This document shows, piece by piece, positions 15,538-53,519 of a stretch of DNA of 64,000 nt. This DNA is from Rusavskia elegans (lineage: Eukaryota; Ascomycota; Lecanoromycetes; Teloschistales; Teloschistaceae). The notes below the pieces were generated by a model. It was not told where the DNA came from, ran no database searches, and worked only from the letters and a program-made list of their open reading frames with translations. Made by a program: the position numbers and the translations under genes. Positions within the stretch are counted from its first letter, which is position 1, and the number at the start of each line of letters is the position of its first letter. The stretch spans positions 1-64,000 of the forward strand of contig SAUG01000116.1 of assembly GCA_011316305.1 (NCBI GenBank), written 5' to 3'.

Positions 15538-15860
15538 CGATAAATATAACTGAATCGATAACTATAGATAATTACCTCGCAGTATAGTAGATAAATATAG
15601 CGGAAATATTAGATATTTATAACTATTTATAGCGTCGAAGAAAGATTAGATATATAGTAATTAAAATTTTAAATATAATAGAAAATTCGTAATCGAATAA
15701 AGAAGAAAATAGTTAAATAGAAGTAATTAACTACGCTTTAAATCTTATCTGACGAACTATATACTTTTAGCTGTAAAATTTCCTTATACGTAAATATAAT
15801 AATCGTTACCGTATATAACGTTATTAATATATATATATATATATATATAAACTCAATATA
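15538..15860 (+). repeat. Inverted-repeat partner of 51296-51600, left of the gene island
   Basis: About 300 bp that match the reverse complement of 51296-51600 through many shared words, for example the CGCAGTATAG, AAATAGTTAAATAGAAGTAAT and GACGAACTATATA blocks in the same order. Both copies end toward the island in an (AT)n run. The left copy is cut on its outer side by the LTR ending at 15537. It is part of an unclassified RIPped repeat; no protein could be read from it. Confidence 0.75.
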
Positions 15861-16398
15861 AATCTTGATAGAAACTTTTTAAAAAGAAATCGAATATTAT
15901 AAAAAAAAATAGACAAAAATAAATCTATATAAAAAAATTATTCTATTATTTTACAAATTATATATAGAAAATTATTTGAAAGAAATATTATAAAATTCAA
16001 GATTTAAATACAAATAATAATTGAATGAAAAAAAAATTGCTATTTTATAGAAAAAATCTACGGATATAAAACATACGTATTAAAATCGTTATCTAATTTA
16101 ACGAATCGTATTAAATCTAATCGAATTAATTATTATATATTTTTCAATTTTATAAAAATATATTTTATAGCAATTATACAATATATTACGAAATTAAATA
16201 TTAATCGAATAAAAAAAATTTATATAAAATAAAATTTCGATACTATTATATTAATATTTGATTTATTTATTAAATCATTGATTTATTGAATATTGAAATC
16301 AAAATCAATAGAAATAAAATAAAAGTATATACGGATTCAAAAACGTATGCAGACGTACGTAGTCACTCAGGGGACCAAAATTTTCTACAATTATAATT
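15861..16398. other. AT-rich RIPped stretch without recognisable feature
   Basis: Long A- and T-runs and no open frame of note. It ends in aattataatt (16389-16398), which is the RIP-altered left copy of the target duplication of the MITE that follows. Confidence 0.6.
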
Positions 16399-25867: not shown

Positions 25868-26120
25868 CCGCCTTGAGGGTTAGAATAAAAGACGGATTAG
25901 GCCTGGAGCGACTTTTAAGGTACCTCCAAGGTGGGTTCCACTGCGCCCCGCACGCCTGCCTGCCTGATGTGTATGCAGTCTGCCGTCATGAACAAGCCAG
26001 CAGAACGTCAATTGGACTGTGAGCTATATGCATGATTGCACAACCTGCAGGCATGAAACATAAAGCACATAAAGTTGAGGCGATCGCCTCCATTTGAATG
26101 CGTCACTTATATACTTCGTT

Positions 26121-31460: not shown

Positions 31461-32600
31461 TCATGCAAGTGCCTTTGTGAGCGCTGTGTTCTCTCGGGTG
31501 ATCCTTGCCCACTCCAAAGTCTTCTTCCATAGCCCTTGTTGCGTCTGCACTTCCATGGACTCTGGAGCACTATTGTCGTGTTTCAGCAGTGTAAAGTACC
31601 CGCGTTCTTGTGGGTGAACAGCTCTTGTTGCAAGGTCAACCACGTCGACACCCGCTTCTGCAGAAGTCCGCATCGTAGGATCCATGAAGCGGAGTAGAGG
31701 TCGCAGCGGCTGGATAACAAACCAAGACACGAATACTAGCATAGTAGGGGTATTGGTTCGCAAGGCGCGCGAGTCGCTCAGGTTACCGGGGTTAATAGCG
31801 ACCGCTGTGATGTTGCGTAGTCGTGGTTCCTGGCGCAGAATCAGTCACACAATCATGCTCCCTGCAAGAAGGTGGGAGCTAGGGCATACATTGTTCAGAT
31901 ATCGATTCAGTGCATACATCCAGGTGACGACGGCCAGCTTCGAGGTTGCATACCTCTGGAATCCTCGTCCGAGGTTATCAGAGGGTGCATCCGGGTCGGG
32001 CTTCACAAGTAGCTCCAGTTCGTCAGGAATAGTTGGGGGGTATTTCTCCAGACCATTCTTGCCCTGCCAGTGGGCGTCGCTGGAAAGGAGTACTACGCGA
32101 CCACCGTCCGAATGGAAGTGGCCGAGCAGTCGAAGGACTAGGGCTGCATGAGCGATATGAATCACTTGGAAGCTCTTCTCGTAGCCATCTCCGGTGAATT
32201 CGATTCCTCCAGAAAGATTCCAGAAATAGGCATTGCAAACAAGACTGACCAGAGGAGGGAGACTGCCTCGGCGGATCTTGTCGATAACATCGTCGGCGAA
32301 CTTGTGGACTGCGGAGAGATCTGCAAGATCGAGCTCATGGATAGAGGTTTTGGCGCCGGGGTGTTTTGCGATAGTTGAACTCAGCCTCTTCGTATTGACG
32401 TCCGAATCGGCGGCAGTGCGAACTGTCAACACCGCAGTGTAGTCGGGGTACTTTGTGAGAAGATGCTCGATGGCTGGAATGGCAAGGGAGCTGTTGGCGC
32501 CGGTAAGGACGATTGTGCCGGCCGTGGATTCGTCCGGCAGATGATTAAGACTGACGACTTGAAAGAGTTGTACGGAACAAGAGAGCTTTGCGGTGGGTAC
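31461..32600 (-). CDS. Short-chain dehydrogenase/reductase (start unresolved)
   Basis: Two clear exons, 31890-32600 and 31461-31829, joined over a 60-bp intron (31830-31889). The cofactor motif T-G-A-N-S-S-L is near the start, followed by D-L-A-D-L (adenine binding), N-A-Y in place of the usual N-A-G, an S-S-D strand and the catalytic Y-A-T-S-K (Tyr-x-x-x-Lys). After the intron, I-N-P-G-N-L-S is the conserved P-G block. No ATG lies in frame upstream of the cofactor motif; a TAG at 32601-32603 doubles as a possible 3' splice site, so a short first exon further upstream is needed (an ATG exists at 32673). It would oxidise or reduce a hydroxyl/keto group with NAD(P)H. It is convergent with the cupin gene, about 155 bp away. 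Confidence 0.8.
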
Positions 32601-34596: not shown

Positions 34597-35688
34597 ATGG
34601 CGGAGGAGAGTGATGCAGATTTGACGGGCTATCCTCTACAGAGACAATTTCTATCCTCCATCCGGTACGACTCAATCAGACCTGCGAAGGATATTAAGGA
34701 GCTGACTGTGAAGCCAAGGCTCTATCTTCAACACTGGATGTGGAGAAGAGAACTCGGATACCTCCTACATCCCACAATACCCGTCGGGGATTCTGCAGTA
34801 GTCGTGGACGTTGCGTGTGGTAATTGGTAAGCCAATGACGTTGTATGTTCGGGTTGTACTGATTATTGCAGTGCTTGGCTTGTCGACGTGGCCCGAACAA
34901 ACCCTGCCGTGCATGTCCATGGCTTCGATATTTCTTCTGCACAATTTCCCCACCATAACTTGCTCCCAAAAAATGTCGAGATCTCTACTCTGGACGTACT
35001 GCAGCCTATACCCGAGAACCTCCTTGCGCGTTACGACGTTGTCCACGTGGGATTGCTCGTTTTCGTGGTTCAGCACGACGATCCCTTTCCACTATTGGAG
35101 AATCTTTTGAAGCTACTAAGTGAGTGGCCTCATCACGCGACGTCGTTTTCTGGCTATAGGTCATCGTGGTTCTGATTGAACGCTTACTTCAATGCCACTA
35201 GAGCCTGGCGGCTATCTACAGTGGGATGAGGCTGACTTAGGAGGACTCTATGTCAACTCTCCACATCCGGATGTGTCCTATGTAGCTCTCGAGGAATTGA
35301 AGTGCAAAACCCAAAACCTTTTTGATGCCACGAGAGGTACAACATTCAGGTACAACGGCTCCAAGACAGGCCAGATCAACGCCACACGTGCCTCCAGCTG
35401 ACAGGCTGTAGTTGGGTGCGCAACCTTGGGGCCGTATTCCGCGAACGCGGCGTGTCTGTGTTGGACGACCGATTCCTGCCGATCAACGATGATATCGCTC
35501 ATCCATGGACCTTGAACCATCTGATGTCGTCGGTGGAGTCGATCAATATTATTGATCAGCCACGTGGGAATGCCAGTGCACGTGAATGGTGGAAACTATA
35601 TGATCGAGCTGCTACTGAGGTCAAACAAGGAGCTACTATGAGGATGGGTATGGTGAGCGTAGTTGGCCAAAAGGCCACCCAGGACTAA
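34597..35688 (+). CDS. SAM-dependent methyltransferase MT1, UMTA-like
   Basis: Four exons: 34597-34826, 34872-35119, 35202-35349 and 35412-35688. They sum to 903 nt, 300 residues, all in phase. After R-L-Y-L-Q-H-W-M-W-R the SAM-binding loop reads V-D-V-A-C-G-N-C-A-W, then G-F-D-I-S-S-A-Q-F-P, V-V-H-V-G-L-L-V and G-G-Y-L-Q-W-D-E-A-D, the pattern of fungal UMTA-type methyltransferases. These are common in RiPP and alkaloid clusters, where some N-methylate amines; the acceptor is unknown here. It is a close paralogue of MT2 at 45.2-46.3 kb, with all three introns at equivalent positions. It lies at the left edge of the proposed RiPP cluster, 430 bp before the first UstYa gene and on the same strand. 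Confidence 0.87.
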
Positions 35689-36120
35689 GCATTGATGCAA
35701 ATGACCGTCAAAGGTAGCCCTGCCCAAGGGTAAGTTAGGAAAATAGCCTTCGCTTAGGAGCAGGCGTCCTCGCGGAATGTGTAGTGAAGGCAGGTACTCA
35801 GGGGCCAGCTCCGCGTCAATTACGGCCATCTGAGGCAATCAACGAGGAGTATCATTCATTCGACTCGGGCTGCTGTCAAAACCTGTCAGTTTGTGAGCAT
35901 CACGAAAGTTAACATTTAAGCCGCAGCGGTGGGCTACTAGGGTAAGCCAAACGTGGGGCCACCGGAGAAACTCCAAACGAAGGCATCAGATCATGTGACA
36001 TCGTTGTACACGGGAGCCCCCGAACATATTTGACCTTTGGGAGCTCCTCCCTTGTGCTCCATTGCTTCCGTCCTCCCCAACCCCGCTCAGAACTTTCTCG
36101 CATTCCGCCGAGATAGAAGC

Positions 36121-36939
36121 ATGCCGTTCAAAAGGGAGACGCATCGTTACTCGATGCTGAACACCAATCGGACAACAAGACTTGGATTACTCCCCATACT
36201 TGACAGTTATTCCTTGCGAACAGTGGTTGTCACATGCCTTTCCCTCGTGCTGCTCCTCAGTGGGAGCTTCATCATCGGCAGGTGGTCTGCACCCAACCGC
36301 TCACTATTGACTATCCCACGTACGTGTTAAAGCCATTCGAGGTGCTTCCTTGGCAAGATATTCTAACTGATAGAGTCTACAGTGGAAACGGAATCGAGAG
36401 TCTTCCACTACGACCGGAGATTTGGTTCATTTCCCTCCAATACCAGCGACACTGCATGGGCCGATATTTTCCCAACCCAGGGGGGATTTTTTAAACACCC
36501 TTCTCTTGCACCGAAGCGCTCGGCATTCTCAGTTTTCCATCAGCTGCATTGTCTGGTACGTGCTCAACGTTGGGCTAGGGGTTTCGGAAAGTGACGCGTT
36601 CAACAGGATGGCTTTCGTCGAGGCTACTGGGAGGTGTACAAAGCCGCATTGGATGGGCGCAAAATCGAAGAAGGAGACTTGCCCTTCATGTCGTCCCCAC
36701 CGCACATACGACATTGCATTGACCTGCTGCGGCAAAGCCTTATGTGTCAACCCGATACGACAATCGAGGTAAAAGTTGAAGAGCTAGGCGGAGTAACAGG
36801 CTTTGGTACCATACATCGGTGCAGAGATTGGAAGCAGCTCATGGATTGGACCGCGGAATGGCAGTGGTACGACTATCAGCCGAAACACGACAAGGTGGAA
36901 TCCCAAGGTCACCATCATCACAGTCAAATGTTGCAATGA
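36121..36939 (+). CDS. UstYa-family (DUF3328) oxidase, first copy
   Basis: Three exons: 36121-36319, 36374-36555 and 36607-36939. They sum to 714 nt, 237 residues, all in phase. There is one membrane segment at about 33-53, after a short basic N-terminus. The two family signatures are present: H-Q-L-H-C at 122-126 and H-I-R-H-C-I-D-L-L-R-Q at 160-170. UstYa-family proteins catalyse oxidative macrocyclisation of ribosomal peptides, classically of Tyr side chains, in the secretory pathway; the paired HxxHC motifs are thought to bind copper. Unusual is a run of four His at 229-232 near the C-terminus. It is convergent with the second UstYa gene (53 bp between stops) and 1.7 kb from the repeat precursor. 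Confidence 0.92.
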
Positions 36940-36992
36940 TCTACCCAGGGACTTGTGGTGAGAGAAGCCTCGGAGTAATTGCATCCGGGTTG

Positions 36993-37926
36993 TCATTGCA
37001 TTGTGACCGTCAATGGATTTTTCAGTCTCAAAATCTCATCCTCCGTAACTTTTCGTGCTGCCATGGAATCGATAAGGATCGGCCAGTTGACGCAAGTATG
37101 TCTCGACTCTGAAGCATTGAACATCGGCCTCGTCTTTGCAGGATCCCACTTGAACGTTGTAAGTGAAAGATCCGGTCGACAGATGGCAGATTGGCGAAGA
37201 AACTCAATGCAGTGATCTGTGGATCAGATCAGCAAAGAGACTCCGAGGTCGCACTCTCCGAGACCGTCTTGTGGAGGGATCAACTCACCAACATGAGATT
37301 CCATATGCTTCTTTGCAGCAACCGACATGTCGGAATGATAGTACTCCGGACGAAGCCATTTTCGCACCATGTTCTTGACGCGGCGTCAGTCTGACTTCCC
37401 GTGACTGGCGTCGTACCACATACAATGCAATGTAGCTGGTGAAAGGCTCCAACCCAGCTCAGATATCCTCCGCCCTCAGGAAGGGCGACCGACTCGACAT
37501 TTTCGCTATCAAGCTCGGCTTTTGTAACGCGGATGTTCATCGGAGCTAGTAGCTCGTCCCAAGTCTTATCGATCTCTGGCGAAGGTTCCCCGGCGAACCT
37601 GCTGCGAGACAGGTTATGGAATGTCTTCTGGACACTTTCGGTCTTCATATCGTGAAGCGAAGCTGGTCGACCGAGTCAGTAAACATCCGACAGCGATAAA
37701 TGAACTCTCACCCACAGCTATAGCTCAACGCCTTCGAATTGTGGAGATTGATAATCCATACAGTCCCTATGGTGTAAAGAGCGAGCAGAGCCATTTGAGC
37801 GAGAAGGAAACTGGCGCACAATCTCCATCTTGAACTTGATCGACGAAGACATTGCGCTTCAGCTCTGGTAGATGACACCTTCTCTTCCTCCTTCACAGCT
37901 AGGAAAGGCTCTTGCTCTGAAGCCAT
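36993..37926 (-). CDS. UstYa-family (DUF3328) oxidase, second copy
   Basis: Four exons on the minus strand: 37716-37926, 37424-37662, 37289-37373 and 36993-37216. They sum to 759 nt, 252 residues, all in phase. Membrane segment at about 37-60. H-Q-L-H-C is at 145-149 and H-V-D-H-C-I-E-F-L-R-Q begins at 177; the intron 37217-37288 falls inside the second motif, after the first base of its Asp codon. The first intron uses GTGGGT as 5' site, chosen because the neighbouring GTGAG breaks the frame. The protein is diverged from the first copy outside the motifs, so the two may act on different positions of one peptide, as UstYa/UstYb pairs do in known dikaritin pathways. Divergent from the precursor gene, with 753 bp between starts. 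Confidence 0.92.
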
Positions 37927-38679
37927 ATCATCTTACAGTCCAGAACAGACCATATTGCAGCGGCGGTTGGGGTCTGTTTGGGTATCTCTCAGTTCGCCAA
38001 CTTGACGGACCCCTCAGGCAAAGCATGATGTCAGAGGCTACATCGACCGTCGATGGCCACGCCCGATTCAAGGATACTGTTGCACAGCATTGCGGCAACT
38101 ACTGATGTCACTGAGCGTCAACTATCAGTCCACGATTATCCGCAACTTGGTCTAAAAGGCAGGAGCTTCCAAATTGTCATACTTTACAACAATACGTTGT
38201 AACTGTATGCAAGCCGTGCTGCAAGCTATTGGGGAGTTCGCCAATTGGCTAGGGTGTCTGTTGCTATCCATCGAACCGGGTTTATTCAGGCAAACTGGTC
38301 ATTTCAGGCAAACTTTTCTCGCCGACGAACCCGGCGCAACACGCATCGCATGATACAGAAAGTGTATGTCAGTCCATCGTCCCAACGTACGAGGCACCCC
38401 ATCAGGGGCTGTTGTGACGACCCAGCATGAACTAGTGCGGGTGAATGCATCGTGCTAACGAAGATGGAAGGTCATTAAACAAGTCCAGGTTTCGGGTGTC
38501 TGATTGCGGCTCAAAACAGGTCGCCTGCAACCTTCGTTGGGAACGATATCGCTTCAAAAGCCCGTCTCATCTCAGACAACAAGCCCACCAAAGTGTCAAG
38601 AGAAATTCAAGTCGACAATCCTCCCCAATCTCCCTGGCTTGACACAGAAGGAAGCTCTCGAGACACACGAACTTACAAA
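37927..38679. promoter_or_regulatory. Divergent promoter region, UstYa copy 2 / repeat precursor
   Basis: 753 bp between the start codons of two divergent genes. No coding signal stands out. Shared control of oxidase and substrate gene is inferred from the arrangement only; I found no clear palindromic CGG..CCG operator. Confidence 0.5.
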
Positions 38680-39069
38680 ATGCTCTTCACTACCATCCTC
38701 ACCAGTGCTCTGGCCCTATGCGCAGCAGCTATCCCTATTGGTATCCTGACCAAACCTTCAACTATCAGTGGTATTCACTGATAAATCTTTACAGACAACC
38801 GTGCAGCAAACGAAAACGCCATTGCCTACCCTGATTCCTACAAACGCACCATGGCCGAAGATGCCGTCGCCTACCCCGATTCCTACAAGCGAGGTGCAAG
38901 CGAGAACGCCATTGCCTACCCAGATTCATACAAGAGAGCAGCGAAGGAGGAAGCTATTGCGTATCCTGACTCGTACAAGAGGGAGGCAAATGAGGATGCC
39001 ATCGCGTACCCAGATTCGTACAAAAGAGAAGCGAAGGAGGAGGCTATTGCGTATCCTGATTCTTATTGA
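38680..39069 (+). CDS. Secreted six-repeat RiPP precursor (dikaritin-type)
   Basis: Two exons, 38680-38740 and 38795-39069 (intron 54 bp), 336 nt, 111 residues. Residues 1 to about 18 form a signal peptide (L-A-L-C-A-A-A). From residue 23 on, the protein is six repeats of 15 residues whose ends fall at 36, 51, 66, 81, 96 and 111. Each repeat ends in the core A-I-A-Y-P-D-S-Y (Val in the second), followed by Lys-Arg in the first five; the sixth ends at the stop codon. The spacer after each Lys-Arg is variable but keeps a Glu (for example T-M-A-E-D, E-A-K-E-E). The core is invariant while its codons vary. Kex2 cleavage at Lys-Arg and UstYa-type cyclisation through the two Tyr are expected from the dikaritin family; the mature product is unknown. 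Two spacers begin Glu-Ala after Lys-Arg, like dipeptidase-trimmed pheromone spacers. Confidence 0.92.
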
Positions 39070-41016
39070 ACGTGTGTGCTGGCAAGGAGATGTGGATTCG
39101 ATGTTGTTATTCAAGGCCATCAGCGAGCCGTCGGATGGAGAAATGTTGATGAGACGGCCAGATATCGTTTGAATGATCGTTGTCACTACCATCTCTGGCA
39201 ACTTTCAATGAATTACGACTCCACTCCATTCCACGATTTGCCAAGAGTTCTATGTAATCTTGTGAGATCCGGCTGTCAAATTTCTCCCGGACAGGACAGC
39301 TGTAATTCAATAGGTATGCCTGCGAGCAAGATAGAAGTCGCTACTGAGAAAATCAAAGGTAGGCACTCATTATTCTTGCACAAGGGGCAGGCAATCGAGG
39401 ATGAAGTCCTCTTTAGGCTTAGCTCAGTGGACCAATAGAGGCTTTACCCAACAAGGTATCGCTCGCTTGGCATTTTTCGGCGTCTTTTCGGAGAGTGGAC
39501 TGCCTTACCATTACGACAACAACAGACCAAGATGACCCTGAACAGCATGGCTCCCCTGTCCAGTCTCTGTAATGGATTGGATATTGCAAATTCGAAGAGC
39601 AACATACGCCTGGCAGTCGGATGGTCCCACCAGTGGGGGAGCTAAGTCATGGGAAAACCCCACCAAAAGAATTAGGTAGGAAAGGAGGAATGCGAACAAA
39701 TAAAATCAAGGGGGCGGGGATGCCCACCAAATTTAGTTAGGCTGTCCCATGACTTCCTGCCCCCACTGGTGGTCCTGTGGCTATGAAATGCAATGCTTTC
39801 ATCGAGTGTGTGGTCACAACAGACAAGGACGGTACCATGACTGGAGCCAAATCCACCAAGCGTTCATGACTTGCCGCTGCTGATACATGATGGAAAGGAC
39901 TGGTCGAGAGAGATAGGCTGTACTGTGTCGCGGGATGGAGCATATTGGTACGTCTCCAGTATCACCAAAAAAGTACCGGAGAAGCATTGCATTGGATGTG
40001 CATTTCGGGAGGTCTGATGGAAAATGCCTCGTCCGAAACGATGGCGGTGATCACGAGAGGACTGGTACTGCACATGGGTGAAGATGGCCCTCCGCCGGCA
40101 GCGCTCTCATGGAAGCAGATCAGCGACTGCATTGTGGTACCAACCTGCGCCGCAGGGTCACCTTTTCAGACGAGAAATTCCAAAGATTGTGACGGCCTTG
40201 GAATTAAAGCGCTAATAGGTCCACATGATTCTGTCCCAGGTCTCTGGGCGCCCGCTTGTCAGAGCTCTGAGCCGATTTACCCTTTCAGCTGAGTGCAGCA
40301 AAAAGAGCCTCCTTCACCGAGCAAGGTTTGACATCATAAAGATCCTTTGGTCGCGTCGAGATGCAGCGGGGGTGAAGCCGAATGCAGCCACGATGTCGGT
40401 TACATCCTCAATACCGCCGCCAAGGCTATTCGGTGGGCTAGCGAGAAGCCAGTCTGTCATGCATTGCTTTGCAGCGTCATCCAAGTAAAAAGGACATGCG
40501 CTTATTTGGACTTGGTGGACCCGCAAACTTACGGCCCGCGTGCACGGCTCCCGGGATGAAGAATGATATCTGGTTCCCCTCAATCTTTTCAGCCTTGTAC
40601 AACCACACTCCATTCAGCATATCATTTCATGTCGTTGCTGATTGGCAATGCAGTCTGTACCAACATGCCCAGTCGATCCAATGCGTCCTCTTATCAATCG
40701 GCTAGCAACAGGAGCGTGGATGCCTTGCATGAGTCTTCGTATCGCCTTGTTTACATCGGAGGAAAGAGTTGGCGAGAGAAGATGGTCAGAACCTCTTCGA
40801 TTGCATAGCAACATCTGAACGGTGAAGAGACCTGACCAAGGTCGGGACCCCAGCTATGCAGCGCCTCCATGCGGCTCTGCATTCGGCTAGACCAATCAGA
40901 CAGGATCACTTCCTGTGAGTGGTCTGTTATTCTCTACGATCACCATGTTTTGAACTCTGTATAGGCCTTTCCAAGGTTTTGACTGTTTCTGCTTCGTGGA
41001 AGAGTTGTGATCAACG
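39070..41016. other. 1.9-kb stretch with no supported gene
   Basis: Between the precursor and the P450. Open frames of 70-115 codons occur on both strands (for example plus 39945-40292, minus 40314-40613) but show no domain I recognise and no consistent splicing. A 146-bp inverted-repeat element lies at 39627-39772. A decayed gene on the minus strand at 39.8-40.8 kb is possible. Confidence 0.4.
39627..39772. repeat. 146-bp inverted-repeat (MITE-like or hairpin) element
   Basis: The left arm reads CCACCAGTGGGGG..AGTCATGGGA and the right arm TCCCATGACT..CCCCCACTGGTGG. The arms are about 30 bp each and nearly perfect inverted copies. The middle is AT-richer. The flanks show no convincing duplication longer than 2-3 bp. 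It is not RIPped. Confidence 0.6.
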
Positions 41017-42537
41017 ATGCTGGGTTTAAATATAATCTTTCCCATATTGGCGACAATCTCAATTCCAGTTGTTCTGCCTCGACTAAAGAGATATCAGCAA
41101 CGCCAAGCAGCCGCGCGAGATCTGGGTTGCCTCCCAGCCACGTACGCACAGCAAAGAGACCCGATCTTCGGCCTTGATTTCGTACTCCAGCTATTCAAGG
41201 CTCTTCGAAACGACCGTCGCAATGTGTCCTTCGAAGCTTTATTCCAAAAGTACGGACATACCTTTCAAGTCAACAGCTGGGGTGGAAATAAGATCTTTAC
41301 TGTAGAACCTAAGAATCTGCAATCCGTCCTTGCCACTGATTTTGCCAGCTGGGGAGTTGAGCCACTGCGACTCTTCCCGTTCGAGCCTTTTGTTGGAAAG
41401 GGCATTATGTGCTCTGATGGGATTTTCTGGGAGCATTCACGAGCCCTTATCAAACCCACATTCACAAGGACGCAGATTGCTGATCTCCACTTATCAGCTT
41501 TCGAAGCCCATGTGCAACGCCTGATTAAGTCGATCCCGGAAGATGGCGCTACTGTCGATCTGCAGCCGCTCTTTGCTAGACTCGCCCTGGATTCTTCTAC
41601 GGAGTTTCTTTTCGGTGCAGCCGTGGGAGCCCTAGGCCCCAACACAATCTCAACTGAAGTCCGGGGGTTTCTGGATGCTTATAATCACGGGCAGATGGTC
41701 GTCGGTCGAAGGTTTCAACTTCCACATTGGAATATACTGACCCAAGATCGGAGGTTTTTAGGTTCGTGCAAAGCCGCCCAAGCATTCGTAGAACAGTACA
41801 TAACAAATGCACGTATGGATCTTCAGAACGCAACACCCGAGAAATCGAAGGTAGAAAGATTCATACTAGTGCATGAGCTGCTGAAAAGAACTAAGGATCT
41901 GAAAGATGTTCGCAATCAACTGCTTAATGTGTTTCTCCCAGCACATGAAGCGACGGGAGTCGCATTGACCAACGTCTTCTTCCAGCTTGCTCGTAACCCA
42001 AGCGTCTATGCAAAGCTTCGAAAGGAGATTCACGCCTCTGGAGGCGATCAAGTACCTTGGACATTCGAACGTCTGAAGAGCCTTCGGTACCTCCAGCATG
42101 TCATCCGTGAGACCTTTCGTCTTAATCCTACAATTGGTACCACGATCCGCATCGCACTTCGGGACACCATACTACCAACGGGCGGTGGGTCTGGTGAATC
42201 AAAAGCACCCATTTATGTTAACCAAGGCGACGTCGTTACCTTCAGCCTGTATGCTCTACATAGACGCAAAGACCTGTTTGGAGCAGATGCGGACACGTTC
42301 CGGCCGGAGAGATGGGAGACGCTTCGACCGCTGCAGTGGAGCTATATGCCCTTTGGCGGAGGTCCGCGCGTTTGTCCAGGGCAAAATTTGGCATTGACCG
42401 AAGTCGCATATTCGCTTGTTAAGATTACACAAGCATTCAGAGCTATAGAGAACCGCGATCCTGTTCTTGAATTCGTTGAGGTGTACAAAATCGCAACTGA
42501 TAGCAAGAATGGAGCCAAGGTTGCGCTCATCAGATGA
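41017..42537 (+). CDS. Cytochrome P450, CYP52/CYP63-like
   Basis: A single exon of 506 residues, normal length. An N-terminal membrane anchor spans about 3-20. The K-helix E-x-x-R is E365-T-F-R368, the PERF-like region is F-R-P-E-R-W at 428-433, and the haem loop is F446-G-G-G-P-R-V-C453-P-G with Cys453 as ligand. The I-helix, usually A-G-R-D-T-T, reads P-A-H-E-A-T-G at about 308-314, so Glu replaces the usual acid and Ala the first Thr; this may alter oxygen activation. The general pattern (S-W-G, F-E-P-F-V-G-K-G-I) recalls fungal alkane/fatty-acid hydroxylases. In this context it could hydroxylate the peptide product, but no direct evidence ties it to that. Confidence 0.9.
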   Translation: MLGLNIIFPILATISIPVVLPRLKRYQQRQAAARDLGCLPATYAQQRDPIFGLDFVLQLFKALRNDRRNVSFEALFQKYGHTFQVNSWGGNKIFTVEPKNLQSVLATDFASWGVEPLRLFPFEPFVGKGIMCSDGIFWEHSRALIKPTFTRTQIADLHLSAFEAHVQRLIKSIPEDGATVDLQPLFARLALDSSTEFLFGAAVGALGPNTISTEVRGFLDAYNHGQMVVGRRFQLPHWNILTQDRRFLGSCKAAQAFVEQYITNARMDLQNATPEKSKVERFILVHELLKRTKDLKDVRNQLLNVFLPAHEATGVALTNVFFQLARNPSVYAKLRKEIHASGGDQVPWTFERLKSLRYLQHVIRETFRLNPTIGTTIRIALRDTILPTGGGSGESKAPIYVNQGDVVTFSLYALHRRKDLFGADADTFRPERWETLRPLQWSYMPFGGGPRVCPGQNLALTEVAYSLVKITQAFRAIENRDPVLEFVEVYKIATDSKNGAKVALIR

Positions 42538-43250
42538 TAAGCCAGTCTTCGCTTCTCAAAATACGTCCCAGATGCTGTGCAAAGTTAATTCTTTGCCTTT
42601 ATTGGCACGATCTCACATTTGAGCAGAATCCGACACGATGGTCATGTGGTAGATCAAGAAGAAATGTGGGAGTAGCGATCTATAATACAATATACCCAGG
42701 GTACTAAGTCTCAGCTCTTCTTGGAAAATAAATTTTGGTACCTGAAGAGAGGGCGCCTCAATCCCCTGGATGTTCTGGGGTCTTACCCAATTTATGCAAT
42801 CGGCGCACTTCCCGGGTGCATATGAGCCAATAACCTTGGAGCCATACATGCCGAGCGGCTTCTCACCAGGCACAAGTGCTTAAGGTTGCCGTGCCGTTTT
42901 GACGGAAGTGTCCGTGTTTAACATCTGGTTACCCGCCTGTAAACAATCATTTCGCCAAAGCGGCTGTGGTCCAGCGTCTCTTAGGAGCGCCTTGATACCT
43001 CGAGAGTTGATTACGCCCACAGGGACGAAAAGAGTATAACGATAGGATAAGGACAGGGCCTTAAAACGACTATCAATGACTGGGTGGCGTGACGGTAGGT
43101 GGCGCGAGCTTTGGGGGCGTTCTCACTTCGTCGAATACAAATAATTCGCATGCCGCAGGCCTCTGGCCTAGATATATTGCGACATATGCTGCAGGGACCT
43201 CCTTGCCTCAACACTCTGCTTCTATTCACTTCAATCCACTAATATTTACG
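42538..43250. other. Intergenic stretch, no supported gene
   Basis: About 710 bp; contains the probable terminator of the P450 gene and promoter of the hydrolase gene. An 86-codon minus frame (42613-42873) has no recognisable content. Confidence 0.5.
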
Positions 43251-44515
43251 ATGGATGGATTGAGCTTCTCAACAGTGCGTTACATCGTGTGGCTTGGTTT
43301 TCTAGGAATCGCTCTTGCTGCCCCTGCGTCGCTAAAGCAAGGCTTCCGAAATGGAAAGATCATTTACTCCGCAGGAAAGAAAGCAGTCTGTGTTAACGGA
43401 GTCATGTCAATCCCAGCCTCTGCGACAAACGTCATACTCGATCTAACCTCGCCGGCGACGCAATTCAATGCAACGGAGATCTTCCAGGAGCTCTTCGAGG
43501 CGGGTTCAACTATCGCACAAAGAGCACAGACGGGCACGCGTACAGTCCAGGGTACCTACGGCATCGGCGCAAATCTCTGCGTTCCGATTAACTCTGCCAA
43601 AGTCGCAGTCACAACCGTCGAGATCCTCACACACGGAGTAGGGCTTGAAAAGTCATACTGGGACATTGCACCAGGCTACAGCTACGTCGATGCCGCAGCA
43701 GAAGCCGGCTACGCGACATTTGCGTACGACAGGCTGGGTGTGGGACAATCAGACCATCCAGATCCCATACAGGCTGTTCAAGCCTTTCTTGAAGTGGAAA
43801 TCCTTCATGGTCTCGCACAGTTGTTTCGTACGGAGAAGATTGGCGGATACAAGTTCACCAACATTATCGGTGTCGGACATTCTTTTGGCTCTATCCTCCA
43901 GGTCGGTGCCGACAGCAAGTACCCACAAGACTTCGATGGCGTGGTCTTGACGGCTTTTACCGCCACCATTGCCAACTTGCCCTACACCATCTTGGCCAAC
44001 GATCCCTCGATCGCGGCGTTGAATCAGCCGGGCAGATTTGGCAGCCTTCCATACGGGTATCTAGTCCACAACGACGCGATTGCCATCCAGGAGCCTTTCT
44101 TCCGATATCCCTTCTTCGATCCTGCCAGTACGTGTACCCCATCATGTTATGGATCCCCTAAGAGCGCGCGCGATAAACTGACCCATCCATAGTCTTCCAA
44201 AACCAAGTCGAACGCAAAGATACCTACACCTTCGGCGAAGAGTTCACCATCGGAGCCATATTGAAGCCCGCAACTGGATACACAGGCCCCATCGACGTGG
44301 TCACTGGTCAGTTTGACTACCCGTTCTGCTTGGGCAACTGTTCATTTCCGGACAACCAGCTTGCGAAAGTGTTGCCAGCGCTGTATCCCGCGGCAAACAG
44401 CGCGAAGTCTGACTTGTTTGTCGTGCCTGAGAACGGGCATTATATCAATGCACATCGAAGTGCTGGGAAGGCATTTGACCAGATCAATCGGTTCTTGAAG
44501 AACAACGGCTTTTGA
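43251..44515 (+). CDS. Secreted alpha/beta hydrolase
   Basis: Two exons, 43251-44127 and 44193-44515, sum 1200 nt, 399 residues in phase. The start at 43251 is chosen because a signal peptide follows directly (W-L-G-F-L-G-I-A-L-A-A-P-A); an upstream in-frame ATG at 43089 would bury it. The nucleophile elbow is G-V-G-H-S-F-G-S, the oxyanion strand T-H-G-V-G, and Y-D-R-L-G-V-G-Q-S precedes it. The catalytic Asp is likely in G-Q-F-D-Y and the His in E-N-G-H-Y. This is a serine hydrolase (esterase, lipase or peptidase-like) acting outside the cell or in the secretory route. In a RiPP cluster such an enzyme could process or detoxify the product; that is speculation. Confidence 0.87.
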
Positions 44516-45233
44516 GCTTTGCCTTCACGGCCTTCGGATGAAGAAAGGGTTGTACAACATAATGTTATGTTTATTCTCTTCTGGCTGTGCGGTCCTGGCC
44601 GAGCGCGGGACTCTGGGGAACTTCTGCGTTACATTCTAATCTCAAGACTTGTCTTTCTGAATTTGCTACCATTGACCTTGACATCGTGTATAAGATTGAA
44701 ATAGGTGTCGGACCAAGATGAGGCTCAACGCAACCTTTTGGCTGGTTCGCCGTCATCTCGGATATGAGCTCATCCTGTGGGCACCTGGTCATCGGAGGCC
44801 GAAGACTTGTGTGGAGGGGTAATACACATGTGTGGTATCTCGACCCCACCCACCCATACGTTGAGTCTGCCACGTCATACATCTTTATTGGCTGTGCTCA
44901 AAGTTGGATGTCGTCAATGCACATCCCGACAATCTGGCTCGCATTTGTGGCTTCGTCACGTGTTAATGGCTGACATGGAGCCGCAGGTCCTGATTTTTTA
45001 GCTGTTGCTGGAGGAAATCTTCGCTCGCGTCCTCAAGAATTTCCCTAACAGCGTGTTGTTGGGAGGCAACCCAAACCTTTTCGTTCAACCAATCCTCGCC
45101 TGGTCGTCTTCACACCAGCTGATCGAAGACACCGCTTCTACGAACTTACTACTTCGGAGAAAAAGATCGTTCATCGACCTACCGAATGAAAGCAGTGGAC
45201 TTCCCCTTACCTGGCACCCGCTTATCCTAAACA
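44516..45233. other. Intergenic stretch, no supported gene
   Basis: About 720 bp between the hydrolase stop and the first candidate start of MT2. No gene recognised. Confidence 0.45.
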
Positions 45234-46306
45234 TGTCGACCGCTGCTAGTGATGTTGGAAGTTTCTACGGACTCGGCCGAGATTTCTTGTCCACGACTAG
45301 GTCCAGTAATCGCCAAATAGCTGGGCTATGAGGTATGCTGACATGTCAAGCGCCAGACTATATCTACAGCACTGGATGTGGAGGCGACAAGTCAAACACT
45401 TGCTTTTTCCCGCCATAACCAGCGAAAATGTAATCACAGATGTTGCAGACATGGGATGTGGTACAGGGTCCACTCAACACTCATCAGCCATCTGTTGAGC
45501 CAGGGCTAAAATCTTCCTTAGCATCTGGCTGATCGACCTTGCGGAGCAACTTCCTCAAGCACAGTTGGATGGCTACGATATATCCTCCTCACAGTTCCCT
45601 CCTCCAGAGTGGCTACCACGCAACGTCAAGTTGGAGGTTCTCGATGCTCTGGCAGAGATCCCCAGCTCACTCGTGGAGAAATACGATGTCATACATGTCG
45701 GGTTGTTAGTTCTGGTCGCGGGTGACAATCCTCTACCTTTGTTGAGGAACTTCGTCCGTATGCTCAGTACGTGAGCAGGGCTTCATTTTGTTTTTGCTGC
45801 TAAGCCATCCCAAATACCACGGTGAATTGACGGATTCCCAGAGCCGAATGGTTACATCCAGTGGGACGAAGCAGATCTTGGTGGTCTCTTTCGTACCACA
45901 AGCAATCCTACACTATCAAAAGACAGCCTCGAACAACTCTACGATCTGGTGGACGAACGATTCAACAGAGCTAGGCTCTCATACAGGTATGTCTGCAAGC
46001 CGAGGCTTGCAAACCTACTGATCTTCGTACAGTTGGGTTCGGTCTCTTGATGAGCTTTTCCGGCAAGAAGGGCTTGCGGTCATCGAGTACAAGCAATTTC
46101 CCATCCCTGACGAGATAGCCCATCCGTGGACCCATATGCACCTTTTATCCCTTGGCGAATTGATCAAGAACGTTGAAAAGTCGGGCGAGGATTCACAGAA
46201 ATGGTTGAATCTATACGCCAAGGCTATTGAGGAAGCTCGCCATGGTGCCAGTGTTAGAATGGACATGGTGGTCGCCGTTGGTAGAAAGTGTAGCGAGGTT
46301 CAATGA
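45234..46306 (+). CDS. SAM-dependent methyltransferase MT2, UMTA-like, with damaged or shortened N-terminus
   Basis: Paralogue of MT1. The frame-checked core is exon 1 ending 45467, then 45522-45766, 45842-45986 and 46033-46306, with the same three intron positions as MT1. Motifs are D-M-G-C-G-T-G-I-W (SAM loop), G-Y-D-I-S-S-S-Q-F-P, V-I-H-V-G-L-L-V and N-G-Y-I-Q-W-D-E-A-D-L-G-G. Met 45234 opens a stretch like the MT1 N-terminus (D-F-L-S-T-T-R against Q-F-L-S-S-I-R), but it meets a TGA at 45329-45331 and the motif-bearing frame is shifted. An ATG at 45328, in the motif frame, gives 267 residues without the first 30 or so. It may be a functional short form, or the gene may be decaying. The first intron starts GTCCAC, a weak site. 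Confidence 0.75.
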
Positions 46307-46618
46307 ACATTCGCTCCTATCGAACCAATGTGAGCATACGTGGGGATGGTACTCTTTCTTAGACCTAGATGTATAATCATCACGCATCCTGTGTTGGCTT
46401 TGCCTCCCGCAAACCCTTGGCTCTGTGATGTCCTGCAATCATTAGTTCCAGAAAGACCAGCAAAGATGCATAGACTCTCAAGCACAAACAAGCGCTGAAT
46501 AAAGAGGCTAAAGCATGCATGTCTGATGTCATGTGGTACGTTCCTCTGGACAGCTTGCATTACTGCTTCGACACACCTCAACCTCCGAGAGACTTTCCCG
46601 ACACTGTTGGCCTCAGAC

Positions 46619-48395
46619 ATGGAATCTCGAGAAGATGATTACCACCTCGATGATCCAAAGCCTGCAAAGAGACTGATTGGTATCGTCGACAATGTCTGGT
46701 ATGCTTCCGACCGCCTTCTGTACACTGAGTCATGATGATCTCAAAGTCGTATAGGGAATGGGCCTTTCAAATATCTTCCGAGTCACCAATTCAGCCTATT
46801 GCCAACCTAGGACACGGAATGATGTAAGATACCCACGATTGTCTTCTTCGTTGATGCCCATCGGTGCAGAGAATTCAACCCCCCTTCTTTCATTGTGAAG
46901 GCACACCAGAACGCTCTTTTGGAGGTCGACTGCAACCAGTATGGACCAACAATGGTTTGAAACTGCTTTCTCCCGACAAGTATCTAAGATTAACAACTGA
47001 AAACTGCTCAGGGTCGAAAACGCTTGAAGACAGTGCTTGCCATAACCTACTCTACACTCTATGATGCGCCCCTGGACGGGGATAAGAACATAGCAATCAC
47101 AACAGGTGCGACGGCGGCAATTCTCAGCTCGCTCATGGCATTCATAGAAGCTGGGGACGAGGTCATAGTAATTGAGCCACTCTTCAATTTGTAAGAACGA
47201 ACAGACAGATACTGGACCAGAACACCAGGCGTTGGTAACAAACGTTTGCAGATACGAATATCTTATCAAATTTGTGGGGGGTGTTGTCAAATCGGTCACC
47301 CTTCATCCACCTACAAACACCGGTAGATCACGAACGTTAGCGGACGAGTGGATGCTGAACATGAAAGAGCTCGGCGAAGCTATCGGTCCACGAACGAAAA
47401 TGCTGGTATGCAGATCAATACTGCTGACTATCCGACTAGAGGACTGATACGAGCAGATCGTCAACACGCCGTGAGACTCCCAGCAATCGTTTCCCCATAC
47501 ATATTGACAAAGTCGAGTCACAACCCTTTGGGCAAAGTATTCTCTTCAGAGGAGCTGCGCTCGATCGGCGACTTCTGCGTAGCTCGCAACATCATCATTC
47601 TCGCCGATGAAGTCTACGAACGACTCCATTACACGCCATCATATCCGCGTATCGCAACCCTCAGCGCACAGATTGCCGCTCGCACCATCTCTATTGGCTC
47701 AGTCGGCAAAACTTTCAATGCCACAGGCTGGCGGGTGGGCTACGCCATTGGGAACGAGAACCTCATCAAGCATGTACAATGGGCCCACGTTCTTCTGTCA
47801 TATGTGACACCAGGGCCTGCCCAAGAAGCAGCGGCAGCGGCCTATGAGGATCCCCTGTCGGAGGACTTTTACAACGAAAACAAGGCCCTGTTCAAACAGA
47901 AGATTGACAAGTTTGGTCAGATTCTGGCCGAACTAGGATTAACGGTAGGTCCTTATGCTGCATCTTCTTGGGAACGACAACGAGCCATGAACAACCGCTA
48001 AGAATCTGCATCATCTAGTACGTTGTTCCTTCGGGAGCGTACTTCATCCTCGTCAACATCAGTACATTGAGACTCCCCCCCAGCTTCGACATCCCAGCCG
48101 CACTATCCCAAAAGGGTATGGACTGGAAAATCAGCTACTACATGTGTCAAGAGCTTGGTGTGTCGTCGATACCAGGAAGTGGTGGGCCACCACCTTAATC
48201 CCATTCTTGTCTTGGTTGTGCCGCTGACACACACGGGCAGCATTCTTCCTGAAAGAGCATGCTGCACTGGGCGAAATCTTCGTGCGGTTCGTTGTATGCA
48301 AGACAGACGAGCAGATTGAGCTTGCCAAGAACAGACTACAAGGTATCAAGGCGCTACTCCTCCCTGCAGGCCACACCGCAGAACGCGAACTCTGA
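46619..48395 (+). CDS. Class I/II PLP-dependent aminotransferase (kynurenine/methionine aminotransferase-like)
   Basis: Nine exons: 46619-46698, 46755-46823, 46870-46954, 47012-47190, 47252-47405, 47457-47470, 47518-47944, 48019-48181 and 48241-48395. They sum to 1326 nt, 441 residues; every junction is in phase. The fold-type I pattern is clear: N-Q-Y-G-P-T, T-T-G-A-T-A-A-I, D-E-V-I-V-I-E-P-L-F, N-T-P-H-N-P-L-G-K-V-F-S (spanning an intron), L-A-D-E-V-Y-E-R-L, and the PLP lysine in S-V-G-K-T-F-N-A-T-G-W-R-V-G-Y. It transfers an amino group from an amino acid to a keto acid. Exon 6 is only 14 nt. In the cluster it might supply a modified amino acid or act on the peptide amino end; it could also be unrelated primary metabolism. 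Confidence 0.9.
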
Positions 48396-48916: not shown

Positions 48917-49755
48917 ATGGCTCTACCTCACATTCTCCTCATCCCCGGCTTCTGGGAAGGCACCTCCATCTACGACGCAGTCATCACCTCTCTTCAAGCT
49001 CACGGCTACACCGCCCAAGCCATACCTCTATCCAGCACCGGCCATGTTTCTCCCAACAATCCCAGCATGAAGGACGATGTCGCTTGCATCCGCTCCGTCA
49101 TCGCCCCACTGGTGGATCAAGAAGAGAAAGAAGTTCTTCTGGTTCTCCATTCGGCAGGCGCTTTCCTCGGTTCCATGGCGATCGAGTGTCTCAGCGTCAA
49201 GGAGAGAAAGAAGCAGGGGAAGAAAGGTGGAGTGAAGAAGATTGTCTTCCTGGCCGGCGCGGTGTGGGAGGAGGGATTTCAGCATGGGCCGTTGCCTTTC
49301 TTTGATTATCAGGTATGTGACAACGTCCACTCTTCGTTGTCGTGCGATACAAAAATACATGAAGAAAGTGGATGATATATTCATGTCCTCCACTATATGA
49401 CCCCCCTCCCCAATTAATGTACACACAAAAGGGCAACGCAATGTACTGCGCCAACCCCGCCCATCTCCTTTTCAACGATCTCCCGCCCGACTCCGCCTCG
49501 TCCTGGGTCTCCAAGCTTCAATGCCAGCCCTCGTCCGGCTGGGATGATGTCGTGGATTATGTCGGCTGGAAGAATGTCCCAAGTGTCTATCTCATTTGCG
49601 AGCAAGATGCTGTCCTACCCCCCGAGATGCAGAAGCAGATGGCGGAGAGGGCGGGAAGCGAGATCGAGACATGTAATGCGGGGCATTGTTGCATGATTGG
49701 ACAGCCGGACCGGGTGGTGGAGGTTGTGGAAATGGCGGCTGGAGAGTGTGCTTGA
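48917..49755 (+). CDS. Small cytosolic alpha/beta hydrolase
   Basis: Two exons, 48917-49312 and 49432-49755 (intron 119 bp), 720 nt, 239 residues. It starts directly with the fold: H-I-L-L-I-P-G-F-W-E-G, where H-x-x-x-x-x-G forms the oxyanion region. The nucleophile motif is L-H-S-A-G-A, a salicylate-esterase-like form of G-x-S-x-G. The late acid is in C-E-Q-D-A-V-L-P and the His in A-G-H-C-C-M. No signal peptide is present. It resembles fungal proteins of the AB_hydrolase_6 group; the substrate is unknown. It is the last gene of the island, about 280 bp before RIPped DNA begins. Confidence 0.85.
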
Positions 49756-50039: not shown

Positions 50040-51295
50040 TCTACGTTCTTAATATATATAGATCTCTATTGAATTGAGATTTACTAATCAATGTTCAATA
50101 ATAATATTTAGCCGTATTAATTGATTGTAATAAAATTTTACAAGATTTAATTTCGAGATCTTTAAATCACAATAGTTAGTTTTATAAATATTAAACAAAT
50201 GTTTAAAAGACTGTTTTTTATAATAAAGAATATTTTATTACTAAATAGATAATTCTATTAAATCAAGATTATAATTAGTTTTAGTAAAATATCTAATGAA
50301 TTCAATTGTATATTCTATATAATCGAATTCGATTTTCAATCTTCTATCGAAATTTTATCGAAATCTATCGCTTTTGAAATTATAACACTGTCAATCTATA
50401 GCTAAATTATAATTAATTGTTTAAACGATAGTATTTCTAGAACAGTATACGATTATAGACTGGACGAAAGGTATATTATAGAACTAACTTATATCTTAAA
50501 AATACTATAGTATAACCTAGTAATTAAAGAAGAGAAAAGGTAGAAAAGAATCGAAATTCGATACGCTAGCGATATTCTAGCGACTAGACGGCGAGTTTTA
50601 TTTCTAAACGTTCTAATTATATTTCTAGAATCTTTATATTATATTTAGTATTTATAATTACTTTCTTTTTAGCGATATCGTCTTCGATATTAAATTATAT
50701 TTATCTATATATTTTATAGTACTTATTTAATAAATCTATTAATCGTATAATTATCTATACGGATTAAATAAGATAAAAAAAATTATCTTTTAACTATTAT
50801 TATAATCTATTACGATTCGATTATAATTATATTTTGGTTATATAAATATATACTAGAATAAAGTAATTAAAAATAGCGTTACTAGAAATCGAATCTAGAT
50901 TTTTTATTTAGCGTGATACTACGATTATAATTACGATTAAAACTAATAACGAACTATATTATAATACCGTTAAATTAATAATATAATATTACTTTAATAA
51001 AATACTTTAAATAAAATATACTATATCTATAGATATATATTTTCCTTGCGTATCTATACGTATATAGCGATTATAAATAATATTAAATAAAAGTTCTAAT
51101 AAATATAATTAAACTCGAACCTAATATAAATATTCGAAGATTTTAAATAGTAAATAAACGTTCGGAACGATACGGTTCCGATACGCTAGCGATAATATAA
51201 TAATATCTTATTTAGTAGAAATTCGGATTTTTTCTATTTTATTTATTTAAATATTTTCTTTCCTTTCTGGAAGGCTCCTATTTGGAATTATATTA
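50040..51295. other. RIPped AT-rich DNA, right border of the gene island
   Basis: Composition changes within about 100 bp of 50040 to TpA-rich, CpA-poor sequence. No open frame or element end was identified except the tRNA-like relic at 50875-50953. It closes near an (AT)n run at about 51300. Confidence 0.6.
50875..50953 (-). tRNA. Possible RIP-degraded tRNA or tRNA-derived SINE relic
   Basis: On the minus strand a T-arm-like CTAGATTCGATTTCTAG folds with a 5-bp stem and 7-base loop and fits a B box (GRTTCGAnnYC) with RIP changes. Upstream, TAGTTTTAATCG fits an A box. The 3' segment TAACGCT pairs partly with the 5' segment TTCGTTA. The anticodon arm is not convincing, so this is not called as a working tRNA. 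Confidence 0.3.
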
Positions 51296-52846
51296 AGTTT
51301 TTATATATATATATATATTCTATCAACGTTATATACGGCAACGATTGTTATATTTTACGTATAAAGAAATTTTTACAGCTAAAGATATATAGTTCGTCAG
51401 GTAAAGTTTACAGCGCAGTCGATTACTTCTATTTAACTATTTCCTTTTTTATTCGATGACGAATCCTCTACTATCCAGTCCTTTCTCGACGTTATATATA
51501 ATTATTAGCTTCTAATATTTCCGCTATATCTACCTGCTATACTGCGAAGTAACTATCTATATCTATTACTTTAGCTATATTTATTATATAATCTATATCT
51601 AAACGCTCTACTAAACTATTAAAGTACTTTTTAGCTTATATATTTTAAAAGGATTACTAGCTATAGGGTCGCCTACTAGTACGCTAGCTACTATAGCTAG
51701 AAGCTTTACCCGGTTAATTAGGTTAAAAGGGGATAGAAAGGTCCGATAGCGCGTTTTAAAGGCGGTAAAAAGAAGATCTTTATCGAAGTCGGAATAGGTT
51801 ACTCTAGTTATAATAAAGTAGTCGACGACCGCGCGGGTAGATATAGTTATTACGGATAAAGATACTACTATCTGGTTTAGATACGGTATAGCTATTATAG
51901 AAATATATATATACGTAATAGGTTTTAGTAAGTTATAGTATTTACGAAGGGCTTATATTACTAGTAAAAGAAGAAAAAGCGATAACTGCGAGGTATACTT
52001 ATCTATAAGAATTTCTACGTTAAATTATCGGTAGAAAGATACGTTATATTATTAAGTAAATTTAAATTAAAATTCTATAAAACCGTTATATATGTTATTT
52101 AGATTAGGGTATAAATTCTGCTACCGTATATTTAATACTGGTATACTAACGTTTACTTTGCTTACTGAACTACTGGTTCATCGGATACTAAAGCCAAAAC
52201 AAATAATTAAATAAATATTTTCTTTTCGTTTATACGAGTTTTTTATTTTTATATATATAGATATATCTCGTCGATTTTATATTAGATACTTTTATTATAC
52301 GACTAGTAACAAATGTAATATAAGTTATTTAAGTCTAATTTTTAAATGTTTAAAAAATTATTTAACTAATATCTATATCAAATATCGGAAAAATAGAAAG
52401 AGTTTTTTTAATTAAAAAATAGTATAGTTTCTTCTATTATATTAGCTTAAAGATAACTATAATAAATTTTCTATATTTTCGATTCGGCTATTAGATAGTT
52501 AATTAACGCGTATTTTTTTATAGTATAAAATGGTAAAAAACTTTTTCCAGACGACAATAATATTATAAAAAAATTTATTTTAGATATTATTAAAATTCTA
52601 AAATACTTCCTTCCTTTTATTATAATATTTTATAATTTTACGCGGAGAACCGATTTCCTTAAATATTTTATAGAAATTTTAAATTTAATAATTTAACGAC
52701 TCGAAATCTATAAATAAACTAATAAAAGATTAATCCGGGAAAACGTTACTATATAAATTAAATAGATTTTTCTAAAATCTAAATTCGAAAAATTTCAATT
52801 CTAGTGGCTTTCTACTATATCTGTTTTTTCTAGCTTACCACTATAC
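51296..52846 (-). repeat. Unclassified RIPped repeat; its inner 300 bp are inverted relative to 15538-15860
   Basis: The segment 51296-51600 is the inverted counterpart of 15538-15860. The rest, to 52846, has intermediate composition and longer semi-open stretches, which suggests a decayed element with coding capacity. I could not assign a protein family. Confidence 0.5.
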
Positions 52847-53024
52847 TGTTACGTCTACGACTTTTTAAAAGTACTAGCGACGGATTGACTAGATAGAAAA
52901 CTAATTATCGTAAAGCCGCGTTAGTTGCCTAGACCGTCTTTATTAATCGATATTAAATATCTACAGCCGTTTTCGGCTATAGCGGCTACTTTTATCTATA
53001 TATATTTCTCTATATTTATATTAG
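52847..53024 (+). mobile_element. Truncated LTR fragment (TGTTACGTC family)
   Basis: It starts TGTTACGTCTACGAC and follows the LTRs at 10875 and 14538 for about 175 bp, then is cut by the second-family LTR at 53025. Confidence 0.7.
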
Positions 53025-53519
53025 TATTATAAGTACAGCTGACGTGCTTTCGAAAACGCGATAGTATTTAGTATAACGTGAGATTTCCTATTACGTTTTA
53101 ACAGGCAAGGATATATAGGACGGTTTTAATATTAGTACTAAAAAGTATTTTAGTAGTTTTAATAAATAAATACTATAAATATTCTAATTTTAGTAGTTTT
53201 AGTAAATAAATACTATAAATATCCTAATTTTAGTAGTTTTAGTAAATAAATATCCTAAGATACGGCTGTTTTAGTTATTTTAGTTAATAAATAATCTAAA
53301 TAGTAGAAGATCTTATCATCTATATAGACCTCGAACTCGACGCTCTTTATAGCTCGTATTTAATTTATTAGTTATCGCTATATACTATTCTAGTAATCAG
53401 ATTGATATATTTTTATATTAATTTAAAGTAATTACCTATTATATCTCTGTTTATAGATATATTAATAAGTTTATCTAATTTTTAGAAATACTAGAATCTC
53501 TCTAGATAGCTTTATAATA
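53025..53519 (-). mobile_element. Solo LTR of the second family, reverse copy
   Basis: 495 bp matching the reverse complement of 5593-6164 at both ends and in the 40-bp repeat region. It is shorter because it has fewer 40-bp units. Its two flanks do not share a 5-bp duplication, so it probably arose by recombination between elements. Confidence 0.7.

Follow-up and report, generated by a model that had tools for sequence, protein, structure and literature searches.

A repeat-peptide precursor beside two UstYa-family genes in Rusavskia elegans: a probable tyrosinase-free relative of the dikaritins

The precursor and the UstYa pair

A repeat peptide precursor is encoded immediately beside two genes of the UstYa/DUF3328 family in the first 64 kb of contig C22 (SAUG01000116.1; hereafter, the window) from the ascomycete Rusavskia elegans. 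Together, these three contiguous genes (36121-39069) form a well-supported unit for the production of a ribosomally synthesized and post-translationally modified peptide (RiPP), as a Kex2-type repeat precursor next to a UstYa gene is the published signature of this kind of pathway (PMC7329392; PMC12048977). A preliminary description of the locus had placed eight genes, including this trio, in a single dikaritin-type cluster at 34597-48395. All eight were found to be present with open spliced models, and seven of them are backed by Pfam families; the precursor returned zero Pfam matches. Alternative splice sites that leave the reading frame open exist in the models of the methyltransferase MT1 (two), UstYa-1 (three), the precursor (two), and an alpha/beta hydrolase (two), with several each in those of UstYa-2, a second methyltransferase (MT2), and an aminotransferase.

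The precursor gene (38680-39069, forward strand; intron at 38741-38794) was delineated from its repeat array, its translation, and an analysis of selection. It encodes 111 amino acids, comprising a signal-peptide-like start (such starts, and the N-terminal hydrophobic stretches noted below, were judged by eye) followed by six units that each end in A(I/V)AYPDSY. Lys-Arg follows five of the six units, while the final core runs into the stop codon. Use of an alternative acceptor at 38806 would give 107 residues with all six cores kept. At the nucleotide level, the repeats were detected by Tandem Repeats Finder as a 45-base array of 5.7 copies at 38806-39062. When the window and nine other fetched loci were scanned for open reading frames (ORFs) that combine two or more dibasic sites with a five-residue word seen three times, the precursor was the sole ORF returned. 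A search of the genome (44,163,098 bases in 217 contigs) for the AYPDSY codon pattern gave six matches, each inside this gene, and the reversed pattern, used as a control, matched once. The monoisotopic masses given in the preliminary description for linear AIAYPDSY and YPDSY, 898.407 and 643.249 Da, were reproduced exactly on recomputation.

The core is under purifying selection. Among the six repeats, pairwise comparison of the codons for YPDSY gives 42 synonymous differences and no nonsynonymous one (pS 0.93, pN 0), and the AIA columns have a pN of 0.05 that stems from one Ile/Val exchange, while many replacements have accumulated in the five spacer columns (pN 0.36, pS 0.86). The core columns require eight changes or more; for all of these to be silent, the probability lies between 5e-6 and 4e-5, according to the transition bias. 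Because differences are silent or nearly so across A-(I/V)-A-Y-P-D-S-Y, this is taken as the selected block, and the high silent divergence suggests that the identity of the cores does not reflect recent copying. The possibility that the array is a chance repeat was considered and rejected on the basis of its tandem arrangement, the pattern of substitution, and the probability of silent change.

Neither AYPDSY nor YPDSYKR, AYPDSYK, IAYPDS, or VAYPDS was found in the open-access papers searched, a search whose scope leaves aside supplements, figures, and closed papers. Likewise, YPDSY is absent from the main text of a large survey of fungal repeat precursors (PMC7329392), with its supplementary tables and figure logos lying outside that search. 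Viral contigs scanned with the precursor gave 57 pattern matches, of which tblastn confirmed 0.

UstYa-1 (36121-36939, forward strand; 234 amino acids) matches PF11807 with 93.3 bits (E 2.5e-26), and UstYa-2 (36993-37926, reverse strand; 252 amino acids in the model used, the first intron of which is uncertain) with 142.4 bits (E 2.5e-41), both well above the Pfam cut-off of 25 bits. Each has an N-terminal hydrophobic stretch and two copies of the HXXHC motif, HQLHC and HIRHC in UstYa-1, HQLHC and HVDHC in UstYa-2; the two proteins share 23% identity across 179 residues. UstYa-2 and the precursor are divergently transcribed, head-to-head, with 753 bases between them (37927-38679). A profile search of the genome gave 11 exon matches to PF11807, grouped into six genes on five contigs. 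With UstYa genes this rare, the probability of a random gene having one at 3 kb or closer is about 7e-4. The earlier claim that a repeat precursor beside two UstYa genes represents the dikaritin signature is thus borne out by the PF11807 matches, the HXXHC motifs, and the purifying selection on the core. A sequence search of solved structures identified no relative of the UstYa proteins; it returned three weak hits (best E 0.033) and one more (E 0.75), unrelated by name.

Neighboring genes and the gene island

The trio lies within an island of approximately 50% GC that spans roughly 16.6-50 kb (33 kb) between AT-rich blocks of 20-23% GC (window 1-16000 and 50500-64000, continuing at C22:64001-74000). 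The TA/AT ratio is 1.24-1.30 in these blocks and 0.46-0.67 in the island, a dinucleotide pattern in the flanks that we take to fit repeat-induced point mutation.

Five further genes of the preliminary description, all on the forward strand, are putative members of the pathway. MT1 (34597-35688; 298 amino acids) and MT2 (45233-46306; 280 amino acids) resemble S-adenosylmethionine (SAM)-dependent methyltransferases and are 44% identical to each other; their Pfam matches are to generic methyltransferase families only. SAM motif I reads DMGCGTG in MT2 and DVACGNC in MT1, the latter reading being dependent on the model of the first intron. The cytochrome P450 (41017-42537; 506 amino acids) is intronless and matches PF00067 with an E-value of 1.9e-54. 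Its I-helix motif, PAHEATG, was compared with those at seven of the 11 non-self loci fetched; a relative on contig C142 has PAHDATA, and among the six further loci, five read [AG][GS]R[DS]TTA and one is interrupted by an alignment gap. Downstream lie the alpha/beta hydrolase (43251-44515; 399 amino acids; Abhydrolase_6), with a signal-peptide-like start and the sequence GHSFG, and the aminotransferase of class I/II (46619-48395; 441 amino acids), which is assigned by Pfam and by its nearest solved structure, that of yeast BNA3, a kynurenine aminotransferase type (E 1.1e-101). A related aminotransferase gene was located at C142:51.7-53.0 kb (46, 43, and 35% identity in three pieces), and hence the copy in the island need not be the housekeeping one.

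Beyond these genes, an esterase-like alpha/beta hydrolase (48917-49755, forward strand; 239 amino acids, exons joined by eye) was recognized by Pfam, and its membership in the pathway is uncertain. On the other side, between 16.7 and 32.6 kb, the island holds genes for an alpha/beta hydrolase, a GMC oxidoreductase, a GNAT protein, and a Gfo/Idh oxidoreductase, together with a fungal rhodopsin-domain gene, an O-methyltransferase (26079-27642, forward strand, ends approximate; PF00891), an oxidase binding flavin adenine dinucleotide (FAD), a cupin, and a short-chain dehydrogenase-like (SDR) gene (31461-32600, reverse strand, ends approximate), the last falling below the curated adh_short cut-off. 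The O-methyltransferase, FAD oxidase, cupin, and SDR, which begin at 26 kb, bear on where the border of the cluster is drawn. Between the SDR and MT1 (32.7-34.6 kb), none of three ORFs tested matched a Pfam family above its cut-off, and one gave a weak match below it.

A related gene set on contig C142

Homologue and synteny comparisons were made within this one genome, with the nearest other copies of the window genes ranked by E-value outside C22. A 14-kb block on C142, at about 131.4-145.4 kb (L050-L052), was found to be related to the O-methyltransferase, SDR, P450, and methyltransferase set of the window. The P450 has its best non-C22 match there (144.05-145.36 kb; 53%, with identity ranging between 49 and 53%), followed by one of 40% among 74 matches, of which shorter pieces elsewhere reach 50%. 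For a 184-residue fragment of the O-methyltransferase (26.9-27.4 kb), the best of 16 matches is at C142:141.2-141.7 kb (51%; next, 43%), and for MT2, the best non-C22 match of 19 is at C142:131.4-131.9 kb (34%; a shorter piece elsewhere has 48%). An SDR fragment finds C142:142.9-143.35 kb as its second match (58%, in part) after one on C21 (59%; five matches in all). The esterase-like gene at 48917-49755 has a relative on C142 with 35% identity over 113 residues, in a comparison with the ten fetched loci; neither the hydrolase at 43251-44515 nor the aminotransferase has a close partner within the block. A fungal rhodopsin-domain gene is also present in the block, and the rhodopsin-domain gene of the window matches one on C73 better than this one.

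The C142 block additionally encodes an aromatic amino acid lyase (PF00221, E 5.7e-52), while its methyltransferase and esterase genes fall below the Pfam cut-offs. The genome-wide profile search gave no PF11807 match in the block, and the ORF scan found no repeat-precursor-like ORF there, the largest array being 2.2 copies of 24 bases in L050. The copy is damaged: its SDR match breaks off at about residue 155 of the protein from the window and involves two frames and an in-frame stop, and its P450 match contains an in-frame stop and lacks 20 residues. SDR and P450 are adjacent on C142, whereas in the window MT1, both UstYa genes, and the precursor lie between them. The arrangement suggests either that the RiPP trio entered an older gene set or that C142 lost the trio, and the data favor neither. 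The lyase on C142 reads A-F-G at the position of the cofactor motif. In aromatic ammonia-lyases, this motif is usually A-S-G.

Proposed product and its class

The reading preferred here, given a probability of about 0.7, is that the trio makes a Kex2-released, oxidatively cross-linked cyclic peptide and represents a tyrosinase-free relative of the dikaritins. The N-terminal signal would direct the precursor into the secretory pathway, and Kex2 would then cut after each Lys-Arg to release 13-residue pieces such as EANEDAIAYPDSY, from which the variable spacer would be trimmed away. The two membrane-anchored UstYa proteins would subsequently link a Tyr oxygen to a side-chain carbon. Since a beta-branched residue precedes the first Tyr and the second Tyr ends the core, two forms of closure may be envisaged: the first choice is a link to the conserved Ile/Val two residues ahead of the first Tyr, as in the epichloecyclins, and the alternative is a bridge between the two Tyr-bearing ends, as in asperipin-2a. 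Tailoring of the peptide by MT1 and MT2, the P450, the hydrolase, and the aminotransferase is plausible, but it is less certain, because part of this set exists without UstYa on C142; the aminotransferase might, speculatively, remove the N-terminal amine.

Several observations weigh against this proposal. No tyrosinase match was found on C22 (PF00264; the five exon matches are on C188, C24, and C38), nor did a search of the genome with PF03572 return an S41 peptidase (made exon by exon, such that a split gene could escape it; control genomes match in 10 of 14). The Pfam scan, which covered a subset of the window ORFs (27 distinct proteins and fragments), revealed neither a transporter nor a zinc-cluster regulator. 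UstYa homologues also occur outside RiPP pathways (PMC12048977). The altered SAM motif of MT1 makes its activity less sure. As genes of the same families occur on C142 without UstYa, the tailoring genes of the window may serve another compound. Shared promoter words in the ten upstream stretches did not exceed expectation, with maxima of 5, 4, and 3 for words of 7, 8, and 9 bases vs. shuffle maxima of 7, 5, and 3. Lastly, of the four other UstYa loci in the genome, around each of which approximately 9 kb was fetched, a coding repeat lies nearby at one only, on C148.

That repeat (105.5-105.8 kb; L019:6502-6771) is a 108-base tandem array of 2.5 copies about 1.3 kb from the UstYa gene; it codes for di-histidine units with one Lys-Arg site and an in-frame stop. 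Possibly a precursor that has decayed or been misread, it was not counted as support.

The assignment as dikaritin-type, made in the preliminary description, holds at the level of gene content under the broad definition (PMC12048977), with repeated cores and Kex2 sites in a multicore precursor, a signal peptide (by eye), and two DUF3328 genes with HXXHC nearby. It fails for the narrow ustiloxin/phomopsin type, for which tyrosinase and S41 matches are lacking as given above. The ustiloxin and phomopsin clusters share with the window a Lys-Arg repeat precursor, UstYa/DUF3328 genes, and a methyltransferase (here two SAM-methyltransferase-like genes, by Pfam family, as candidates for an N-methyltransferase of the PhomM/UstM kind), and in the case of ustiloxin also a P450 and a pyridoxal phosphate (PLP) enzyme (PMC6514808). 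They differ in their need for tyrosinase, in the S41 peptidases shared by the phomopsin type, and in that an N-terminal Tyr precedes and is joined to an internal Ile (PMC9233826; PMC6514808). The epichloecyclins (gigA, Epichloe) likewise derive from a multicore Kex2-type precursor, and with Ile first and Tyr internal, they have the order seen here (PMC9233826; PMC6514808). Unlike the core of the window, which has no Lys and carries two Tyr in five to eight residues, they are nonapeptides with reported Lys methylation. In asperipin-2a, two Tyr ethers form two rings (PMC9233826; PMC6514808). Its cluster in Aspergillus flavus also combines a repeat precursor of Tyr-rich core with a UstYa-type gene and no tyrosinase, features that recur here as a UstYa-type oxidase, a Tyr-containing core, and no tyrosinase match on C22; however, it consists of four genes only (aprA, aprY, aprT, and aprR), has one UstYa gene rather than two, and encodes the core FYYTGY (PMC6514808). 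In the Pfam-scanned subset of the window ORFs (27 proteins and fragments), neither the isoflavone-reductase-like family of AprR nor the transporter family of AprT was detected.

One pathway or several

That all eight genes act in one pathway, as originally proposed, is not established, since the P450, one methyltransferase, the upstream O-methyltransferase, and the SDR have relatives on C142 without UstYa, and for the same reason proximity by itself does not suffice to link the tailoring genes to the peptide. In a narrower form of the preferred reading, to which nearly even odds may be given, the trio alone would make one peptide, as in the small asperipin-2a cluster. A second pathway, derived from an aromatic acid and shared with C142, would then account for the P450, the O-methyltransferase, the SDR, MT1 or MT2 or both, and possibly the aminotransferase. 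Consistent with this, the best non-C22 matches of the P450, the O-methyltransferase fragment, and MT2, with the partial SDR match, all converge on the one C142 block, where an aromatic amino acid lyase is encoded and where the scans detected neither PF11807 nor a repeat precursor. The position of the trio inside the set, between SDR and P450, argues against such a division, as does the better match of the rhodopsin-domain gene to C73; furthermore, the stops in the C142 SDR and P450 leave room for the loss of a RiPP part from that block, and ustiloxin clusters similarly hold P450, methyltransferase, and PLP enzymes (PMC6514808).

A single RiPP pathway extending over about 26 to 48.4 kb or further, of which the preliminary description had proposed eight genes, appears rather unlikely. 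It would account for the presence of all the genes in one 33-kb island between AT-rich blocks, and UstYa clusters with a P450, a PLP enzyme, and a methyltransferase are known (PMC6514808), but a border set by AT-rich blocks defines no pathway, relatives exist on C142 without UstYa, and no promoter word rose above the shuffles. Both these words, their maxima being within those of the shuffles, and the spaced CGG pairs observed in four of the ten promoters (at three spacings, as raw counts) were rejected as evidence of co-regulation. In 2025, O-methyltransferases were stated to be unreported in dikaritin clusters (PMC12048977), and a link between the one at 26-27.6 kb and the peptide is putative.

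An improbable but more far-reaching variant is a hybrid pathway, wherein I-A-Y-P-D-S-Y would be closed without tyrosinase by the two UstYa proteins, in the reversed, Ile-before-Tyr order, and finished by a borrowed aromatic-tailoring set of the P450 with its unusual oxygen-binding motif, the O-methyltransferase, the SDR, and the aminotransferase. Were it true, RiPP genes and a small-aromatic pathway would have been fused to yield one product, with the tailoring set being paired in the damaged C142 sister with an aromatic ammonia-lyase and not with a peptide.

Also improbable is that the repeat protein serves as the precursor of a linear secreted signal or a pheromone-type peptide, with the UstYa genes nearby incidentally. 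Kex2-repeat proteins do include pheromones and linear peptides, and no DUF3328 gene was recorded within 15 genes of 6,120 of the 7,878 repeat precursors surveyed in fungi, but two UstYa genes are directly adjacent here, one of them divergent, the core contains no Trp, whereas closely spaced Trp residues occur in mating-factor type G-4 and pheromone type P-6, and, with three exceptions, the pheromone-type precursors surveyed have no DUF3328 neighbor (PMC7329392).

Relation to known repeat-peptide clusters

In the survey of 2020, the 7,878 repeat precursors came from 1,345 of 1,461 fungal strains; 1,758 (22%) show the same gene pairing as the window, with a DUF3328 gene within 15 genes, and 65.6% of the repeats in these hold Tyr (PMC7329392). 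With 1,758 such pairings already mined, the suggestion that the cluster is new as a kind does not stand; as gene sets of this type are common in fungi, the cluster probably adds a further case to the known, frequent UstYa repeat-peptide kind, and if ordinary, it would be one more member of a large class. Confirmed UstYa peptides are nonetheless few, a 2022 review naming three dikaritin groups, victorin, and the epichloecyclins (PMC9233826). What the locus offers is a very clean core (six copies, with only silent changes in YPDSY), two UstYa genes, and no tyrosinase match on the contig, and the C142 block, a partial sister within this genome, makes it testable which neighbors act on the ribosomal peptide.

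Other features of the window

A scan of the window found zero RNA families and zero transfer RNAs. Between the precursor and the P450, at 39627-39772, lies an element-like inverted repeat with 41-base arms that are 78% complementary and separated by 64 bases; partial matches to it occur on C135 (67 bases, 90%) and C157 (56 bases, 84%).

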